Shown: in pieces, positions 13,067 to 20,761 of the stretch
Layout of the letters: each line of letters begins with the position of its first letter
Numbering within the stretch: position 1 is the first letter of the stretch
Assembly: GCF_024297065.1 (NCBI RefSeq)
Contig: NZ_CP101114.1
Span: 1,054,001-1,118,000, forward strand
From: Bartonella harrusi
Lineage (GTDB): Bacteria; Pseudomonadota; Alphaproteobacteria; Rhizobiales; Rhizobiaceae
DNA length: 64,000 nucleotides
Reading direction: 5' to 3'
Made by a program: the position numbers and the translations under genes
Notes under the pieces: generated by a model
Seen by the model: the letters and a program-made list of their open reading frames with translations, nothing else
Databases searched by the model: none
Told to the model about the DNA's origin: nothing

Positions 13067-13770
13067 TGTAGTTTGACAGTATGTTTTGCAGTAAGTGGGA
13101 AGAGGTTTGATTAGTTAGGAATACGTGATAATTTGTTGTTTTTATGCATATTTTTTACCTTTAAATGCGTGTTGTGTCAAAAGAGATTTTGACAGCTGAA
13201 AATGGCAAAAAGAGCGAAAAATGCCAAAAATTAGAATTTTGCACTAAAAATAAGAAAATCCTTTAAAAGGTCTTTGAAAATCCTTTGAAGAATTTTAAAA
13301 AGTCTGTGAAAGCCCAGAAAACCGGCTTTGAAGACCCTTTGAAAAAAATGAAGCAAAAAATGTAATTACCTTCAAAATCAGCCAAAAATGATCAAAAAAG
13401 CAAAAAAGATTTTCACCTATTGGTGATTATCTCTTTTTAGAGGCAATATAATTTTATAAATCAAATAATTATATTGTTTTTCTAATGTAAAAAGATTTTC
13501 ATATTGATTTTTTATTTTAAAGGGACATTAAGCCGTATTTTGTGTGGTTGTTAGATGTGCTTTTTCAGCTTCAATTTGTCGCTTTAAGTGCAACTTTAGA
13601 AGAGGAAAAGTAAGTTCGACTTCTTCTGGGTCATTGATGTTTTGAACAAGCTCTTGCAACTTTCTATAAAGCTCTGCCGCTAATTCCGCTATATCTTCAG
13701 GGGGGAGTTTTATTTTTGCGTCGCGATAGGTCGTATAAGCTATGCGACCGAGCTTTTTCATCAGCCCAGT
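13067..13770. repeat. Long direct repeat, copy 1 (prophage left end to repressor 3' part)
   Basis: Matches 13935 to about 14640 with scattered differences. Similarity covers the terminal sequence, the CTTTGAA-rich non-coding part and the repressor C-terminal coding region. A short segment (about 13420-13500 against 14280-14360) is different in the two copies. Confidence 0.85.
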
Positions 13771-13934
13771 AGGGATGGTAGGTGGAGAGATATTGAAAGA
13801 CCGAGTTAACGTCATGTCTATAAACATTGCATCTTCACCAGTCAAAAGCCAATTCAGGTTTACTCCAAATTTTTCTTTGTATGATGATAAAACGGTTGCG
13901 TCTGGAGTTCTATCACCACGTTCGTAATTCCCAA
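13528..13934 (-). pseudogene. Truncated phage repressor (3' part only)
   Basis: The reverse strand reads open from 13934 to a stop at 13528. It starts in the middle of an XRE-type helix-turn-helix domain (GNYERGDRTPDATVLSSYKE, then FGVNLNWLLTGEDAMF). It continues into a C-terminal half almost identical to that of the intact repressor (LMKKLGRIAYTTYRDAKIKL onward). The N-terminal DNA-recognition part is missing because the left end of the main prophage interrupts the gene. A short ATG/GTG-started product of about 105 residues could still be made from the C-terminal part; whether it mixes with the intact repressor is unknown. The DNA-binding remnant differs from that of the intact repressor, which suggests a different operator specificity. 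Confidence 0.8.
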
Positions 13935-14640
13935 TGTAGTTTGACAGTAGGTTTTGCAGTAAGTGGGAAGAGGTGGGATTAGGTAGGAATACGTGGTAAT
14001 TTGTTGTTTTTATGCATATTTTTTACCTTAAAATGCGCGTTTTGTCAAAAGAGATTTTGACACCTGAAAATGGCAAAAAGAACGAAAAATGCCAAAAATT
14101 AGAATTTTGCACTAAAAATAAGAAAAAGCTTTAAAAGGTCTTTGAAAACCCTTTGAAGAATTTTAAAAAGTCTGTGAAAGCCCAGAAAACCGGCTTTGAA
14201 GACCCTTTGAAAAAAATGAAGCAAAAATTGTAATTACCTTCAAAATCAGCCAAAAATGATCAAAAAAGCAAAAAAGATTTCCATATGTGAGTGGAAATCT
14301 CTAAAAAACGAGTAAAAAACATTATTTATCAATATCTTGTATCAGTTATTTAATGTAAAAAGATTTCCACTTTGATTTTTCCTTTTAAAGGGACATTAGG
14401 CCGTATTTTGTGTGGTTGTTAGATGTGCTTTTTCAGCTTCAATTTGTCGCTTTAAATGCAACTTTAGAAGAGGAAAAGTAAGTTCGACTTCTTCTGGGTC
14501 ATTGATGTTTTGAACAAGCTCTTGCAACTTTATACAAAGCTCTGCCGCTAATTCCGCTATATCTTCAGGGGGGAGTTTTATTTTTGCGTCGCGATAGGTT
14601 GTATAAGCTATGCGACCGAGCTTTTTCATGAGTCCAGGAG
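13935..14640. repeat. Long direct repeat, copy 2
   Basis: Second copy of the repeat at 13067-13770. It contains the left terminus of the main prophage, about 460 bp of non-coding sequence and the 3' half of the intact repressor gene. Confidence 0.85.
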
Positions 14641-14926
14641 GGATAGTCTGTGGTTTAAAACCCGCTGCTTTTGCCTTTGCCATGTCACTGAACATCTCAC
14701 CTTCACCCGTAACAAGCCAATGAGGGTTAATGTTATAGACTCTATGATAGGCATTAATTGCTGAGGATGTTGGTTCGTGTGCTCCGATTTCATAATTGGC
14801 AAGGGTATTGCGTTGTAAATTAAGGCGTTGCGCAAAAATTCCACGCTCTTCGTTTCCGAGTACTCGTCGTACTTCACGTAGCCGTTTTGCCAGTTCTGTT
14901 TGTGGTTCTCTTTCAAGGCGTGCCAA
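14396..14926 (-). CDS. Phage repressor, XRE-type helix-turn-helix
   Basis: Lysogeny repressor of the prophage, transcribed leftward away from the early operon, in the position of Mu c. With the proposed start it has 176 residues. An N-terminal HTH spans roughly residues 10-75 (LAKRLREVRRVLGNEERGIF, LNLQRNTLANYEIGAHEPTS) and ends in the pattern NPHWLVTGEGEMF, common to XRE phage repressors. The C-terminal helical part (from LMKKLGRIAYTT) probably serves oligomerisation. I chose TTG 14926 because GGAG lies eight bases upstream; a TTG at 14965 would add 13 residues. The C-terminal half is nearly identical to that of the truncated repressor at 13528-13934. Confidence 0.85.
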   Translation of the reverse strand: MARLEREPQTELAKRLREVRRVLGNEERGIFAQRLNLQRNTLANYEIGAHEPTSSAINAYHRVYNINPHWLVTGEGEMFSDMAKAKAAGFKPQTIPPGLMKKLGRIAYTTYRDAKIKLPPEDIAELAAELCIKLQELVQNINDPEEVELTFPLLKLHLKRQIEAEKAHLTTTQNTA

Positions 14927-14942
14927 AAAAATTACTCCAACA

Positions 14943-15012
14943 CCAAATATTTTCTTGCAAAACAAAATATTTGGTATTATACCTCATATTACTGTCTGTT
15001 AAAAAAGACAGT
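14943..15012. promoter_or_regulatory. Early operator/promoter region with three inverted repeats
   Basis: This is the divergent region between the repressor and ner. It holds CCAAATATTTT / AAAATATTTGG (14943-14953 and 14964-14974, perfect 11-bp arms), GGTAT-T-ATACC (14973-14983) and ACTGTCT / AGACAGT (14991-14997 and 15006-15012). Such symmetric sites between repressor and Ner genes are the expected binding places for both proteins. Which protein binds which repeat cannot be told. Confidence 0.7.
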
Positions 15013-15078: not shown

Positions 15079-15372
15079 ATGACTATCACACAAACATGGG
15101 ATCGCCATAGTATTTTAGCTGAGCTACGCCGCCGTAATATGACCTTGGCGGAACTCACGAAAGTTTATCAAATCCCGTCATCCAGTGTCAAAAACATTTG
15201 GACACGGCCCAATGAAAAAGCCGAACGCGCCATTGCCGATTTTATCGGCTTGCCCGTCGAGCAGGTTTTTAGCGACCGCTACCCTAAAACGAACCGTCGC
15301 ATTTTTAAAGCAGCAAAACATGCCAATACGGACTTGAGTGCACATTCCACATTGCGCGGTAATGCCGCTTAA
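15079..15372 (+). CDS. ner: Ner/Nlp-type transcriptional regulator
   Basis: Small DNA-binding protein (97 residues) that in Mu-like phages turns down early transcription and the repressor promoter. The sequence matches the Ner/Nlp family: TWDRHSILAELRRRNMTLAELTKVYQIPSSSVKNIWTRP, then AERAIADFIGLPVEQVFSDRYP, an HTH followed by the typical I..ALG/FSDRYP-like end. The C-terminal tail of about 25 residues is extra. Start ATG 15079 has AGGAG eight bases upstream, while the longer frame from 14887 runs through the operator region and is rejected. It is the first gene of the rightward early operon. Confidence 0.9.
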   Translation: MTITQTWDRHSILAELRRRNMTLAELTKVYQIPSSSVKNIWTRPNEKAERAIADFIGLPVEQVFSDRYPKTNRRIFKAAKHANTDLSAHSTLRGNAA

Positions 15373-15589: not shown

Positions 15590-15971
15590 TTTATGGACCC
15601 CAGAGGCAAAGAGGGAAATCGTCAATCCTTATTCAGAAGTTGAACGGTTAGAAACGATGCTTGCTTGTTGTTTTAAGGCGGTGAATGGAGGCTTTAGGCA
15701 TCTACCAATCCGGTATATTATTGATCCGCCGCATGGTTTGTTTGATGCGGCATTAGCACGGCAGATTGTTATTCATATTTTGCATTATCAGTTTGAAGTG
15801 CCACGGCGGCGTATTGTTGCCATCCAAGCACGGCAGCGGACTTCTATATCTTTGTCTCTTCAAGTGATTAGTCGGCGTTTGAACGATCCTGTTTTTGCTA
15901 GAGCTTATCGAAGATGGGCTGTGCGTGCGATGGATTTGTTTTTTAAAGAAATGAGAAAGGCGGCGGGGTGA
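15573..15971 (+). CDS. Early phage protein with DnaA domain IV-like C-terminus
   Basis: 132-residue early protein. Its middle and end (LARQIVIHILHYQFEVPRRR, then ARQRTSISLSLQVISRRLNDP) resemble the DNA-binding domain IV of DnaA, in which a helix with ARQIA is followed by a GR-rich HTH loop. The resemblance is by eye and moderate. If true, it would be a sequence-specific DNA-binding protein of the replication or early-control module. ATG 15573 is preceded by GAGGGGG; the frame extends upstream to 15540 without support. The stop overlaps the next start (TGATG), showing translational coupling to the ParB-like gene. Confidence 0.65.
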   Translation: MVAACNLWTPEAKREIVNPYSEVERLETMLACCFKAVNGGFRHLPIRYIIDPPHGLFDAALARQIVIHILHYQFEVPRRRIVAIQARQRTSISLSLQVISRRLNDPVFARAYRRWAVRAMDLFFKEMRKAAG

Positions 15972-16990
15972 TGGCACAGTTTCAAAGGCTTTCTCTTGAT
16001 GTGATTGTGGTGCCGGAGCGTATTCGCCCTGTGGATGATGAGCATGCTAAGGCTCTTGCGCAATCGATAGCGCGAGAAGGGTTGATGAATCCGATTACCG
16101 TGCGCCATACGCCCAATGCCAAGGAGGGCAATTATACGCTTATTGCCGGTGCGCACCGATTACGGGCTGCTACGCTTTTGGGCTTTCGCGAAATTGATGC
16201 GGTTGTGGTGCAAGCGGATAAGGAGAATGCTGCGTTATTAGAGGTTGCGGAAAATCTGTTTCGTAATGAATTGTCTGTTATTGACCGTGCTTTGTTTGTC
16301 CAGACTTACCGCGAATTATGGGAGAAGAAGTATGGGGAAATCAAGTGTGGTGGGGACGGTAGTAACCAGCATAAAAGCAAAAAAGAGCAATTGGGACAAG
16401 TTGTCCCTATTGCTCAAATCAGTGACAATGTCTCTTCAAATGACAGTGAAATCGCCTGTGAAGGGGACAAAGTGGCAAAGGGTAAAGTTTACCCTTTGCC
16501 AAATGATGGGTCTTTGGAGGAATTCGGTCAAGCTGACCTAATTGCTCAAAGGAGTAGCAATAGTGCAAAGTTTGCACAATTGCATGATGAAGAGCAAATG
16601 GGTAAAGTTTACTCTTTTGCCGCACATGTGGCAGATCGTATTGGTTTGTCTCCAAAATCAGTAAGACGTCTTAACAGCATTGCTCGACATTTACAACCGG
16701 AGTTGCGTTCGGTTTTGCGTGGAACGGCTTTGGCGGATAATCAGGCACAATTGTTGAAGTTGGCAAAGATGGAGCCGGTTGCGCAACGGAGAGTGGCGGT
16801 TGCGTTTCAACAGGTTGAGGGGGATTTGCGGCGGGCTTTTGATTTGGTCAATGGGATTAATACGCCCCCGCAAATTAATGAACAGGAACGGATTTTTGCC
16901 CAATTATTGGGGGTGTGGCAAAGGGCGAATGCGCAAACGCGGGCGCGTTTTTGCGACTATTTAGAAAAGCAAGCGGTGGAGGTGCAATGA
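15971..16990 (+). CDS. ParB/Srx-domain protein with internal palindrome array
   Basis: 339-residue protein with an N-terminal ParB-like nuclease/CTPase-type domain (about residues 1-115): the motifs PITVRH and YTLIAGAHRLRAATLLGF correspond to the ParB boxes, followed by VAENLFRNELSVIDRALFV. Residues about 139-217 form a low-similarity linker encoded by five long interrupted palindromes (16385-16620), reported separately. The HTH-like region resumes at VADRIGLSPKSVRRLNSI. Such proteins occur in early operons of Mu-like phages of Rhizobiales; the role (regulation, partition-like or DNA transaction) is not established here. It starts by TGATG coupling and ends in ATGA overlap with the next gene. 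Confidence 0.85.
   Translation: MAQFQRLSLDVIVVPERIRPVDDEHAKALAQSIAREGLMNPITVRHTPNAKEGNYTLIAGAHRLRAATLLGFREIDAVVVQADKENAALLEVAENLFRNELSVIDRALFVQTYRELWEKKYGEIKCGGDGSNQHKSKKEQLGQVVPIAQISDNVSSNDSEIACEGDKVAKGKVYPLPNDGSLEEFGQADLIAQRSSNSAKFAQLHDEEQMGKVYSFAAHVADRIGLSPKSVRRLNSIARHLQPELRSVLRGTALADNQAQLLKLAKMEPVAQRRVAVAFQQVEGDLRRAFDLVNGINTPPQINEQERIFAQLLGVWQRANAQTRARFCDYLEKQAVEVQ
16385..16620. repeat. Array of five interrupted palindromes inside the ParB-like gene
   Basis: Five inverted repeats of 23 to 31 bp, four with a central single G flanked by TAAA/TTTA, CAA/TTG or CAAA/TTTG. Centres lie at 16400, 16487, 16532, 16570 and 16607. The second is perfect: TGGCAAAGGGTAAA at 16473-16486 and TTTACCCTTTGCCA at 16488-16501. 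The first has 14 of 15 matching pairs (16385-16399 / 16401-16415), the third 12 of 15, the fourth 12 of 13 and the fifth 11 of 13. Outer arms share GAGCAATT / AATTGCTC in several units. All lie inside coding sequence and keep the frame open. Confidence 0.9.
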
Positions 16991-17448
16991 TGAAGATGCA
17001 TAGTTGCGGGCAGCTTGATTTTTTTCAACAGCCGGTTTTTCCTTGCCGCGAACCGGTTGCACAGATTGATTTAGAGCGGTTTCGCTCACACATGAAGCGT
17101 GCCATGGCACGAGCTTTGCGCGAATGCCGGTTTGAACGCAGCGTGGTTGCGGAACGGATGGCACATTATTTGGGCATTGGTTTTTTGAGTAAGGCGAGTT
17201 TGGATGCTTATGTTGCTGAGAGTAAGCAGGTTGATATTTCTCTGCCGCGTTTTAAGGCCTTTGTGCGGGCGACAGACGCCTTTTGGCTCTGGGATGAGGT
17301 GGTGCGTGAAGATGGTTTGTTGTTGTTGCAAGGGGATGAAGCGCGTTTGGCAGAGATTGCACGGCTCCAGCAAGAACAGCGGGAGATTGCGGCACGGTTA
17401 AAGGTTATGCGTGCGACACCTGTGAGAATTAGACGGGGGCAGCCATGA
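16987..17448 (+). CDS. Early phage protein of unknown function
   Basis: 153-residue protein between the ParB-like gene and the transposase, coupled to both by ATGA overlaps. The central part (HMKRAMARALRECRFERSVVAERMAHYLG, then LDAYVAESKQVDISLPRFKAFVRAT) looks helical and could contain a helix-turn-helix, and the end is a charged helix (LAEIARLQQEQREIAARLKV). I do not recognise a named family. Its fixed place before transposase A suggests an accessory role in transposition or early regulation, which is only inferred. ATG 16987 is preferred; the frame extends upstream to 16915 inside the ParB-like gene. Confidence 0.8.
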   Translation: MMKMHSCGQLDFFQQPVFPCREPVAQIDLERFRSHMKRAMARALRECRFERSVVAERMAHYLGIGFLSKASLDAYVAESKQVDISLPRFKAFVRATDAFWLWDEVVREDGLLLLQGDEARLAEIARLQQEQREIAARLKVMRATPVRIRRGQP

Positions 17449-19427
17449 AGGAATGGTTTAGTATTGCTGAATTGGCTGAAGCGGCTTTGCCAGGGTTGCC
17501 GAAGAGTCAAGGTGGACTGCGTAAGATTTTGTCGACGAAATGGCGCCATCATAGTGACTTGATACGCAAAGTTAAGGGAGCGTTTCGACCCATTGTCGAG
17601 ATTCATCTCTCGTTATTACCGGAGGAGGCGCGGGCGGCTTTGTTGGTGCGCTCTGGTGTGGGGTGTGTTTCGGGGGAGATAGAGAATAGTGGACAAAAAG
17701 AAGAACTTTGGGCGCGTTATGAGGGGCTTTCAAAGGAGCATAAAAGGCGCTGTGAAGAGCGTTTGAAGGCACTTTGTTTTATGGATGATTTGCTCCATGG
17801 CGGTCTTGGCGTGCATGATGCGGCGGTACGGACGGGGGTTCATTTTGGTATCAGTTGTCGGTCACTGTTTCATTGGTGGCAAAGGGTGGAAGGTTATGAA
17901 CGCCCTGATTGGCTTGCGGCTTTAGCGCCTTGTTATGGTGAGGAGAATTTTTCACAATTTGCGCCTTGTCATGAGGAAGCTTGGGAGGTTCTCTGTTCGG
18001 ATTATTTACGTCCCTCTAAACCTGCTTTTTCGGCGTGTTATCGACGGATGGTTGTGATTGCACGAGAAAAGGGTTGGGAGCCACTTCCTTCGGAGCGGGC
18101 TTTGCGGCGGCGTTTTCATAAAGAAATTTCCAAGGCGGCTGTGGTGTTGGCGCGTGAGGGAGAAGAAAAGGCAAAAAAGCTTTATCCAGCACAACGGCGT
18201 GATCGTTCGAGCCTGCATGCTTTGCAAGCGGTGAATATGGATGGGCATAAGTTGGATGTTTTTGTGACTGTGCCTTGGGCTCAAAGACCTGTGCGGCTTT
18301 ATTTGATAGCTATACAAGATCTTTATTCGGGGAAGATTTTATCGTGGCGCCTATCGGATGTTGAAAGCTGGGAAATCGTTCGTTTGGTGATAGGGGATAT
18401 GGTTGAAGCCTATGGGATACCGGAGCGCATGACTTTGGATAATGGGCGTGCCTTTACCAGCAAATGGATTTCTGGGGGTGTGCAAAACCGTTTTCGCTTT
18501 AAGATTAAGCCGGATGATCCGCAAGGACTTTTGACGAGTTTGGGTGTGCAATTGCAATGGACAACGCCTTATAGTGGGCAATCGAAACCGATTGAACGGG
18601 CATGGCGTGATTTGGCGGAGGGGATTTCGAAGCATCCTTTTTGTGCGGGGGCTTATACGGGCAATAAGCCGGATGCTAAGCCTGAGGATTATGGTAAGCG
18701 TGCGATTGGATTTGAAGAATTTAAAGCCCATGTTGGCGCGCAGATTATGGCGCATAATGAGCAAACGGGGCGCAAGGCGGTTAATTGTGCGGGACGCAGT
18801 TTTGATGTGACCTTTGCTGAGAGTTTAAAAGCCGATGGGACGATTGTTCGGCAAGCAACAGCGGCGCAACGGGCTTTATGGCTTTTGACTTCACAAGCGC
18901 TTCGGGCGCAAAAGGGCACGGGTGAGATCCATTTTTATGGCAATCGTTACTGGGCGCGTGCGTTGAATGAATATGCGGGGCAGAAGGTGATTGTGCGCTT
19001 TGATCCGGATGATTTGCATCAGGATTTGCGGGTTTATGATTTGAACAATCGGTTTATTTGCATGGCATCTTGTCTTTGTGATGTAGGTTTTTACGACCAG
19101 CAGGCAGCGCGTTTGAATGGGCGTTTGCGTAAAGAATATGTGAAGGCTGTGAAAGCCGAAAAGCAGTTGGCAGCTAAACTTGCCCCTGATCAATTGGCGG
19201 ATGTTTATGGGCGCCTTGAACAAAAGGGCAAAGAGTTAAAACGCAAATCTGCGATAAAGCCAAAGGTTACGCGATTGGTTGCAAACAATATGGGGAATTT
19301 GGCTTTGACAGCAAAGGAGGATGAGGCTTTGGAAGAAGAAGAATTTAGCCAACATCTTCATAAGGCTTTGAGACGGCTTTCTGTCTGTGATGGGGGGCGT
19401 GAAGTGATAAAGTTTCCTAAGCAATAG
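17445..19427 (+). CDS. Mu-type DDE transposase (MuA-like)
   Basis: Transposase (660 residues) that cuts the phage ends and joins them to target DNA for integration and replicative transposition. An N-terminal Mu-type winged HTH (EWFSIAELAEAALPGLPKSQGGLRK) starts the protein. The catalytic triad is visible as D266 (VNMDGHKL), D332 (MTLDNGRAF) and E384 (KPIERAWRDL), with spacing close to Mu A. A beta-barrel/C-terminal domain with YGNRYWARALNEYAGQKVIVRFDPDD follows, ending in a basic region that in Mu contacts MuB. The gene appears intact. Its substrates should be the TGTAG/CTACA termini at 13935 and 50302. Confidence 0.96.
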   Translation: MKEWFSIAELAEAALPGLPKSQGGLRKILSTKWRHHSDLIRKVKGAFRPIVEIHLSLLPEEARAALLVRSGVGCVSGEIENSGQKEELWARYEGLSKEHKRRCEERLKALCFMDDLLHGGLGVHDAAVRTGVHFGISCRSLFHWWQRVEGYERPDWLAALAPCYGEENFSQFAPCHEEAWEVLCSDYLRPSKPAFSACYRRMVVIAREKGWEPLPSERALRRRFHKEISKAAVVLAREGEEKAKKLYPAQRRDRSSLHALQAVNMDGHKLDVFVTVPWAQRPVRLYLIAIQDLYSGKILSWRLSDVESWEIVRLVIGDMVEAYGIPERMTLDNGRAFTSKWISGGVQNRFRFKIKPDDPQGLLTSLGVQLQWTTPYSGQSKPIERAWRDLAEGISKHPFCAGAYTGNKPDAKPEDYGKRAIGFEEFKAHVGAQIMAHNEQTGRKAVNCAGRSFDVTFAESLKADGTIVRQATAAQRALWLLTSQALRAQKGTGEIHFYGNRYWARALNEYAGQKVIVRFDPDDLHQDLRVYDLNNRFICMASCLCDVGFYDQQAARLNGRLRKEYVKAVKAEKQLAAKLAPDQLADVYGRLEQKGKELKRKSAIKPKVTRLVANNMGNLALTAKEDEALEEEEFSQHLHKALRRLSVCDGGREVIKFPKQ

Positions 19428-19732: not shown

Positions 19733-20761
19733 ATGAAATACGCGATCAATGCAACAGTTGAGAAAAATCCTTGGGCGCGACCAAAAATCCAGCCCGAAAT
19801 AGCAGCAAACCGCAACAGTGATGATATTGCCTTATGGAATACGCTTGTGGATTCGGTGAGAGCTATCGCAAAAATGCATGATTGGACGAAGGCGGAAGTT
19901 GCGCGGCGCATTGGTATGCCGGATGGAACATTTTCGCAATGGTATGCGGGCAGTTATGCGGGGCAATTGGGCAAGCAGAATACAAAAGTTCAACAGTGGG
20001 TAGAGGCTTTAAAGGAGGTGGATGCGCTTTTTGAGCGTATTCCTGAAAAGCCGGCCTTTCAGAGGAATCGTATTGCACAAGAAATCATTGACACTTTAAC
20101 ACTGGCACAAAGCACGGGCGATATGGTGATGATTACGCTTGATGCGGGCAGTGGCAAGACGGAAACATGCCGTCATTATCGTGCAACGCGCCCGCATGTT
20201 TATTTGGTGACAGCAAGCCCGCATACGCGCAGTGTTCATGGTATTTTGAATGACATGGCAGCAGAATTGGAAGTGGTGGAATATAATCCCACCCGCTTAA
20301 CACGCGCTATTGGCAAGAGGTTAGAGCGGGTAGGTGGTGGGACGTTATTGATTGTTGATGAGGCGCAAAATTTAACGGATGAGGCGATTAATCAATTGCG
20401 CCATTTTGTTGATATCAACGGCACGGGTTTGGCTTTGGTTGGCAATGATGAGATTTCTGGACGTTTGGTTCACCGTCAAAATGGCCCTTCTTATGCGCAA
20501 ATTAAAAGCCGTTTGGCAATGCATTTGAAGCGCCGTAAGCCCTATAGTGAAGATATTGCCGCCCGTATCCATGATTGGGGGATTGAAGATGTTGGGGCGG
20601 TTAAGTTTCTGACAGGGATTGGTTTAAAGGCTGGTGCTTTGCGGCAAATTGATAAAACCATGATGCTGGCACGCATGGCAGCCCTTGGAGATGGGTGTGA
20701 GGTCACGCTTAAACATGTCAAAGCGGCGTGGAAAAACCGTGACGTGGAGGAATTGGCATGA
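19733..20761 (+). CDS. MuB-like AAA+ ATPase, target-DNA activator
   Basis: 342-residue ATPase that in Mu coats target DNA, gives target immunity and stimulates the transposase. It has an N-terminal HTH (WTKAEVARRIGMPDGTFSQW, about residues 51-70), Walker A DAGSGKTE (about 137-144) and Walker B LLIVDEAQ (about 205-212), followed by a sensor region and a C-terminal helical domain resembling that of MuB. ATG 19733 has GAGGGAG upstream. It ends in an ATGA overlap with the next early gene. Confidence 0.93.
   Translation: MKYAINATVEKNPWARPKIQPEIAANRNSDDIALWNTLVDSVRAIAKMHDWTKAEVARRIGMPDGTFSQWYAGSYAGQLGKQNTKVQQWVEALKEVDALFERIPEKPAFQRNRIAQEIIDTLTLAQSTGDMVMITLDAGSGKTETCRHYRATRPHVYLVTASPHTRSVHGILNDMAAELEVVEYNPTRLTRAIGKRLERVGGGTLLIVDEAQNLTDEAINQLRHFVDINGTGLALVGNDEISGRLVHRQNGPSYAQIKSRLAMHLKRRKPYSEDIAARIHDWGIEDVGAVKFLTGIGLKAGALRQIDKTMMLARMAALGDGCEVTLKHVKAAWKNRDVEELA

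Follow-up and report, generated by a model that had tools for sequence, protein, structure and literature searches.

We found that the palindromes embedded in the ParB-like gene of a Mu-like prophage of Bartonella are very probably cognate binding sites of the protein encoded by this same gene, a prediction from sequence that follows from covariation between the recognition helix of the protein and the palindrome cores and that would make them the protein's own parS-like site, placed within its coding region. The first-pass annotation had offered three meanings for these repeats (binding sites of the ParB-like protein itself forming a parS-like cluster in the gene, a mobile palindromic element, and an mRNA hairpin array), and it is the first of them that this residue-to-base covariation supports.

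The window, that is, the whole stretch of DNA analysed, covers 64 kb of a Bartonella genome of 2.27 Mb and contains, from ~14.4 kb onwards, the left part of the prophage. The prophage genes are arranged in the order repressor-like, Ner-like, PHROG 9734, ParB-like, PHROG 2345 regulator, Mu A, and Mu B, with GemA later on. The genes and domains referred to below are the following:

14396..14965, minus strand: c-repressor-like gene of the Mu-like prophage (PHROG transcriptional repressor/regulator families)
15080..15372, plus strand: Ner-like regulator (Pfam HTH_35, PHROG 769; longest ORF from TTG 14887, ATG 15080 likely)
15968..16990, plus strand: ParB-like gene, 340 aa (start GTG 15968 or ATG 15971; PHROG 3264 over residues 2-339, E 3.6e-106)
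16025..16258, plus strand: ParB N-terminal domain, residues 20-97 (Pfam ParB_N PF02195; GAHR and ENLFR motifs conserved)
16346..16609, plus strand: codons of the interdomain loop, residues 127-214 (AF2 pLDDT <50, disordered)
16652..16690, plus strand: HTH recognition helix, residues 229-241, PKSVRRLNSIARH (AF2 helix)
17445..19427, plus strand: Mu A transposase (Pfam DDE_2, HTH_Tnp_Mu_2, Mu-transpos_C)
19733..20761, plus strand: Mu B transposition protein (Pfam Phage-MuB_C)

The C-terminal 80-odd residues encoded by the repressor-like ORF at 14396-14965 recur almost unchanged in a smaller ORF at 13528-13845 (minus strand), which is thus a duplicated repressor tail. A scan for promoters and terminators gave nothing useful.

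The ParB-like protein matches PF02195 above the cut-off (E 2.3e-13). Nucleotide-pocket motifs of the ParB/KorB/Noc family are GxxR and ENxxR, and the ParB-like protein has both of them, with G61, R64, E95, and N96 invariant among 43 aligned sequences (six phage-record rows were excluded from this motif alignment and locus L144 was added). In the AlphaFold2 (AF2) model, built from an alignment of 43 homologues, the N-domain is followed by an HTH (helices 217-225 and 229-241), and two C-terminal helices are present, which may correspond to a dimerisation domain. Foldseek searches with this model returned Noc, ParB, Spo0J, and KorB (matches 7nfu, 6t1f, and 8qa9), and a profile-based search of solved structures retrieved the Noc/ParB/Spo0J/KorB families again, plus a sulfiredoxin.

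Five inverted repeats had been claimed within the gene, centred at 16400, 16487, 16532, 16570, and 16607, and all of these positions are true dyad centres (no strand is assigned to the palindromes):

16385..16415: palindrome 1, core GGGACAA-G-TTGTCCC, centre 16400; 14/15 pairs, mismatch at distance 8; predicted cognate site
16473..16501: palindrome 2, GTA core, centre 16487; perfect over 29 bp, 14+14 around G; predicted non-cognate
16517..16547: palindrome 3, degenerate, cGTC-type core, centre 16532; mismatches at 1, 7, and 12
16557..16583: palindrome 4, GTGCAAA-G-TTTGCAC core, centre 16570; 12/13 pairs, mismatch at 8; codon phase differs
16594..16620: palindrome 5, degenerate, GTA-type core, centre 16607; mismatches at 6 and 8

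The repeat described earlier as perfect over 29 bp is the one at 16487, and four of the five indeed share one codon phase (phases 0, 0, 0, 2, and 0). Chance is an improbable source of this arrangement, as had been argued: the five best linker scores sum to 51, and the maximum over 3000 synonymous-codon shuffles was 36 (0/3000). Palindromes 1-5 occupy the codons of residues 140-218 and the low-pLDDT segment comprises residues 127-214, so the palindromes lie in the loop and at its far edge, just before the HTH. A gapless scan of the 64 kb detected four palindromes scoring at least 9, three of which are inside the ParB-like gene, and a scan tolerating mismatches in the two central pairs detected three more sites with a score of at least 10 elsewhere in the window. 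No match was obtained when phage records were searched for DNA similarity with positions 16320-16640. Linkers belonging to several helix alleles (L214, L215, L220, and L222-L224) also contain the core type of palindrome 4, GTGCAAA-N-TTTGCAC.

Distribution of the palindromes was examined in homologous loci. Among 65 loci (L001-L065), 44 could be parsed (43 from Bartonella and L032), five had one half missing, and 16 were without a usable anchor pair. All 43 parsed Bartonella loci, some of which represent one gene fetched twice, have palindromes in the loop, one to four each at a score of at least 8 and up to five per loop under a looser threshold, and no loop palindrome of score at least 8 was found in L032, which comes from a relative in a different family within the order. 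The ParB-like genes of phages POA1180 (Ochrobactrum), StopSmel and Aussie (Sinorhizobium), RcapMu (Rhodobacter), and RR1-B (Rhizobium) each contain one palindrome in the same place and with differing sequence, and eighty IMG/VR loci further widen the homologue set carrying a loop palindrome; all 120 proteins listed by a second protein search were already in the first list. Five cut or broken loci (L021, L054, L056, L060, and L061) were excluded too, leaving 127 genes, which were dereplicated to 52 homologue lineages with a cut-off of 80% identity outside the loop. The best-scoring palindrome within the gene falls in the loop in 43 of the 52 lineages, is tied in four, and lies elsewhere in five (L141, L176, L183, L194, and L032). 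When 200 synonymous shuffles were made for each lineage, the observed score was reached by none of them in 27 of the 52 lineages, by at most 2 in 36, and by at most 10 in 45. The loop palindrome is not specific to Bartonella; it is an old feature with a fixed place. As to array size, there is typically one site in the non-Bartonella homologues examined and one to five in Bartonella phages, and the five complete phage genomes named above contain no second palindrome of like sequence at a score of at least 10.

Other palindromes were noticed in some of these phages. RR1-B (L200) has a different palindrome, TGACCGGAACCGRGTTCCGGTCA, which occurs four times (11530, 18994, 26071, and 31108, ~5-8 kb apart) and is possibly a regulator site. 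StopSmel (L197) and Aussie (L201) have a common palindrome near base 322, at the left end, with arms AACATGCAA/TTGCATGTT and a variable centre. Among four more distant ParB-like phage genes, L202, L204, and L205 contain no linker palindrome above score 7, and L203 (Microcystis phage Mvi-Yong1342-1) has a score-7 palindrome at approximately the corresponding place (bases 356-384 of gene 1420-2073), which may be a hint of wider spread.

What is kept at this place is the DNA rather than the protein sequence. In 43 non-Bartonella lineages aligned on the palindrome centre, arm pairing at distances 3-11 amounts to 0.84-1.00, whereas the composition of the columns would give 0.36-0.69. A single palindrome position can show as many as four pair types, and the codon phase of the palindrome varies by lineage (0, 1, or 2). 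The first-pass annotation had named as counter-evidence a protein segment that is conserved by amino acid while its palindromes are lost through synonymous changes; the reverse is seen across homologues.

The relationship between the protein and its palindrome was analyzed in the non-Bartonella phages, using as a code set 43 of the 50 non-Bartonella lineages (the 52 less L001 and L032) whose palindromes score at least 8 and holding out the seven weaker ones. When 203 protein columns are ranked by how informative they are on bases 3-6, ranks 1-3 go to residues 175, 179, and 178 in RR1-B numbering, which correspond to residues 230, 234, and 233 of the window protein and are all situated in the recognition helix. 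Residue 178 and base 6 agree throughout: E with C (12/12), Q with C (7/7), N with G (7/7), K with G (12/12), R with G (4/4), and A with T (1/1), or, when pooled, E/Q with C in 19/19 and N/K/R with G in 23/23. The rule also fits 6/6 held-out lineages with E, K, or R, and the seventh held-out lineage has S with T. For residue 179 and base 3, L goes with A (14/14) and R with C (9/9). With the rest of the protein controlled for, the inner palindrome half (distances 1-5) correlates with HTH windows at partial r 0.35-0.37, versus at most 0.18 elsewhere, and the HTH window with a partial r of 0.37 contains no linker. The outer half tracks mainly the loop that it encodes (0.26-0.30; elsewhere at most 0.16). 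The whole half-site correlates with the HTH at a partial r of 0.24 when the N-terminal part is controlled for (0/2000 permutations). With linker and HTH left out of tree building, 10 changes each are counted for residue 178 and for base 6, and 6/6 independent pairs are concordant (p 0.031).

In Bartonella, 158 proteins yielded 135 distinct helix-plus-linker entries, 128 of them with a readable core. Fifteen six-residue recognition-helix alleles are present, nine of which occur in at least four entries, and a tree that was built from 125 Bartonella proteins without loop and helix shows 65 changes of allele. Assigning one core to each helix allele accounts for 117 of the 128 proteins, versus a maximum of 96 in 2000 permutations with the map refitted, a test limited by the cores of these database proteins being read from amino-acid motifs rather than from DNA. 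Among proteins with readable cores, the matches are QDVVKR with TGC (33/36), KESVKL with GTA (28/29), SKSVRR with GAC (19/19), PKSVRR with GAC (4/4), QVSVKR with ATC (7/8), EESVRR with cGTC (5/5), and KESVKR with GTC (3/3); KRAVHY with GTC is weaker (10/16), and SKSVKR is divided between GAC and ATC. Base rates of the same cores under other helices are 34/92 for TGC, 45/96 for GTA, 10/119 for ATC, 15/123 for cGTC, and 31/109 for GTC, and GAC is present in 24/24 PKSVRR/SKSVRR/TKSVRR proteins versus 19/104 proteins with other helices. The 23 proteins with a single core follow QDVVKR-TGC in 8/9, KRAVHY-GTC in 4/4, KESVKL-GTA in 3/4, EESVRR-cGTC in 3/3, and KESVKR-GTC in 2/2 cases, the remaining one being SKSVKR-ATC. 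Considering residue 234 alone, a base-3-A core is found in 31/32 L234 proteins and a base-3-C core in 79/80 R234 proteins; the opposite core is also present, base-3-C in 23/32 L234 proteins and GTA in 34/80 R234 proteins. Under tree control, 8.7 of 10 GAC pairs are of the same kind and 0 of the other (median p 0.004). GTA, TGC, ATC, cGTC, and GTC point in the expected direction with few pairs and p not below 0.05 (TGC and GTC with 0.5 opposite on average); because arrays also hold foreign cores, finding a common core in an array says little by itself.

The helix of the window protein is PKSVRR, which pairs with GAC, so that palindrome 1 (16385-16415) is its predicted cognate site, and palindromes 2-5 have cores of other types. 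A second prophage of the same genome is an exception, having helix QDVVKR and yet no TGC core. Mismatches are present in 4/30 cognate and 17/52 foreign units (Fisher p 0.068), which is no more than suggestive of better preservation of the cognate sites. We also considered incompatibility, in which co-resident prophages avoid an equal helix. It was unsupported among ten genomes, of which G017, G067, and G069 have distinct copies sharing a helix, and G036 and G050 have repeated same-helix copies.

It could be argued that another phage or host protein reads the sites and that the ParB helix correlates with them only as a gene neighbour. The linker adjoins the HTH and, of 100 columns ranked in Bartonella, the linker-edge residues 216, 219, and 218 take the third, eighth, and tenth ranks, as such an explanation would have it. 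However, the top two Bartonella columns (230 and 229) and the top three in the other phages lie in the recognition helix, farther from the linker than the preceding helix, and helix residues 237, 231, 234, and 233 follow in Bartonella at ranks four to seven. Moreover, the correlation fades beyond the HTH, with values of 0.14 and 0.01 in the windows that follow it, and the pairing of residue 234 (179 in RR1-B) with base 3 is common to Bartonella and the other phages. We therefore regard mere linkage as very unlikely.

A second alternative is that symmetry arises by mutation only, template switching copying arm onto arm while the palindromes drift unread. This would account for the joint change of the two arms, even in foreign cores, whose arms are symmetric although they are presumably unread, a property that simple recognition does not explain. 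On the other hand, a link to helix residues is not predicted by it, and a displaced, non-coding array looks decayed. This array, with nine ParB-linker-like palindromes (counted in L076, 836-1225; G000:C2 871.8-872.2 kb), sits after a late-control-D-like tail gene and is found in copies at five genome places (L076 and L077-L080), away from any ParB gene seen. Under one picking rule, perfect units at distances 2-11 number 0/9 in the displaced array versus 29/66 among distinct coding units, and mismatched pairs 14/90 versus 59/660, and thus symmetry seems to decay once the gene is lost, as judged from this one array. Symmetry by mutation alone appears very improbable; template switching may nevertheless be how symmetric changes come about.

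The hairpin array suggested earlier, with stem-loops slowing translation between the two domains or protecting or processing the mRNA, would be expected to form strong stems; the arms covary, and the site is indeed at the domain junction. Selection on the message should, however, let G.T mismatches outnumber A.C ones, and the counts at distances 3-11 are 3 versus 6 in the 43 non-Bartonella lineages and 4 versus 5 in 50 distinct Bartonella units, small numbers without a G.T excess. As covariation with recognition-helix residues is not predicted either, a message hairpin is disfavoured as the selected feature and we consider it highly improbable. A mobile palindromic element inserting in frame is extremely unlikely: unit number does vary in Bartonella, and the decayed array stands behind a tail gene at five genome places, but that array carries ParB-linker-like spacers and is likely, from its appearance, a displaced ParB fragment; the site holds one place in the homologues of other hosts despite unrelated arm sequences; and, unlike Rickettsia palindromic elements, which are palindromes inside ORFs with copies across many unrelated genes, the perfect palindromes among 31 genome matches to GGNNNAASTTNNNCC (the only core pattern searched genome-wide) are five and are all confined to two ParB-like genes.

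If the palindromes are read by the ParB-like protein, as we prefer, a ParB-family dimer would recognize the dyad via its HTH, with residue 233 (window numbering) contacting base 6 (distances in bp from the centre), residue 234 contacting base 3, and residues 229-230 contacting bases around 4-5. The site would occupy codons of the disordered loop before the HTH, where amino acids may be free to follow the DNA, and its embedding in the gene would hold protein and site together through phage recombination. Bartonella phages appear, from their sequences, to have expanded the site into arrays, usually comprising the core of their own allele plus foreign cores.

By analogy with the family, the protein might load as a CTP-dependent, ParB-type clamp at the site, near c, ner, A, and B; such a clamp is suggested by the conserved N-domain motifs together with what is described for the family in passages of PMC7383237 and PMC11790492. 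Since the site belongs to the early region and precedes A and B, the foremost candidate roles are feedback on the transposition genes and marking of phage DNA. It is conceivable, though doubtful, that loading of the protein blocks transcription of the transposition genes downstream, or tunes it; equally tentative is the idea that loading marks the phage DNA as this transposes replicatively. A KorB-like or Noc-like role is more probable than partition, as ParA-type PF13614, the one family searched for here, has six matches genome-wide and none inside the 64-kb window. We think it unlikely that the arrays of Bartonella phages are functional for several specificities at once, with the protein's own loading site accompanied by sites for ParB-like proteins of other phage alleles. 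If this were true, the protein of one phage could load onto the DNA of another or be titrated by it, providing a phage-against-phage or phage-to-phage signalling layer within a protein-coding loop.

Two Mu-like roseophages with ParB homologues have been described, with a possible role in integration suggested (in passages of PMC5488378). In the literature searched, we found no tested function for this ParB-like protein of Mu-like phages, and no account of an embedded, covarying site is given there or in the passages of PMC7022226 considered. The present results propose a loading site for this protein and reveal a natural library comprising ~50 homologue lineages and over 100 proteins from Bartonella, each gene of which shows both a ParB-family protein and the site it probably binds. 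Evolution of protein-DNA specificity thereby becomes directly testable, and orthogonal ParB/site pairs are possible laboratory tools.

ParB and Noc dimers insert their recognition helices into palindromic parS and NBS sites, with few interface residues setting specificity (as described in passages of Jalal et al. 2020, PMC7383237). The phage protein resembles them in having a ParB N-domain and an HTH and in its structural match, whereas its sites, unlike parS and NBS, are inside the gene, in loop codons before the HTH, have an odd centre and long arms, vary in specificity from phage to phage, and form arrays with several core types. KorB of plasmid RK2 is a regulator and a DNA-stimulated CTPase of the ParB family (from passages of McLean et al. 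2025, PMC11790492). The phage protein matches KorB in sequence and fold; KorB, however, has operators upstream of its target promoters and a ParA partner, IncC, whereas no second like palindrome of score at least 10 was found in the five phage genomes and no PF13614 in the window.

Location of a ParB site in a ParB gene also occurs in Bacillus subtilis, where a parS is located inside spo0J. That site has the universal parS sequence, which is present in many chromosomal places, and it differs from the phage system, in which protein and site change together. The chromosomal parS consensus is TGTTTCACGTGAAACA, and the palindromes of the window do not fit it, having an odd centre and another sequence. 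The origin of phage lambda lies within gene O and consists of iterated sites of a phage protein in its own gene (passages of PMC4488673). Lambda O, however, starts origin-dependent replication, whereas Mu-like phages replicate by transposition and the protein found here is of the ParB family. Sites inside the gene of the protein that binds them are already known, namely the lambda origin in O and parS in spo0J. What is new is the family-wide placement of the site in the loop before the reading helix, a residue-to-base code that single genes display, and arrays in which matching cores stand beside foreign ones.
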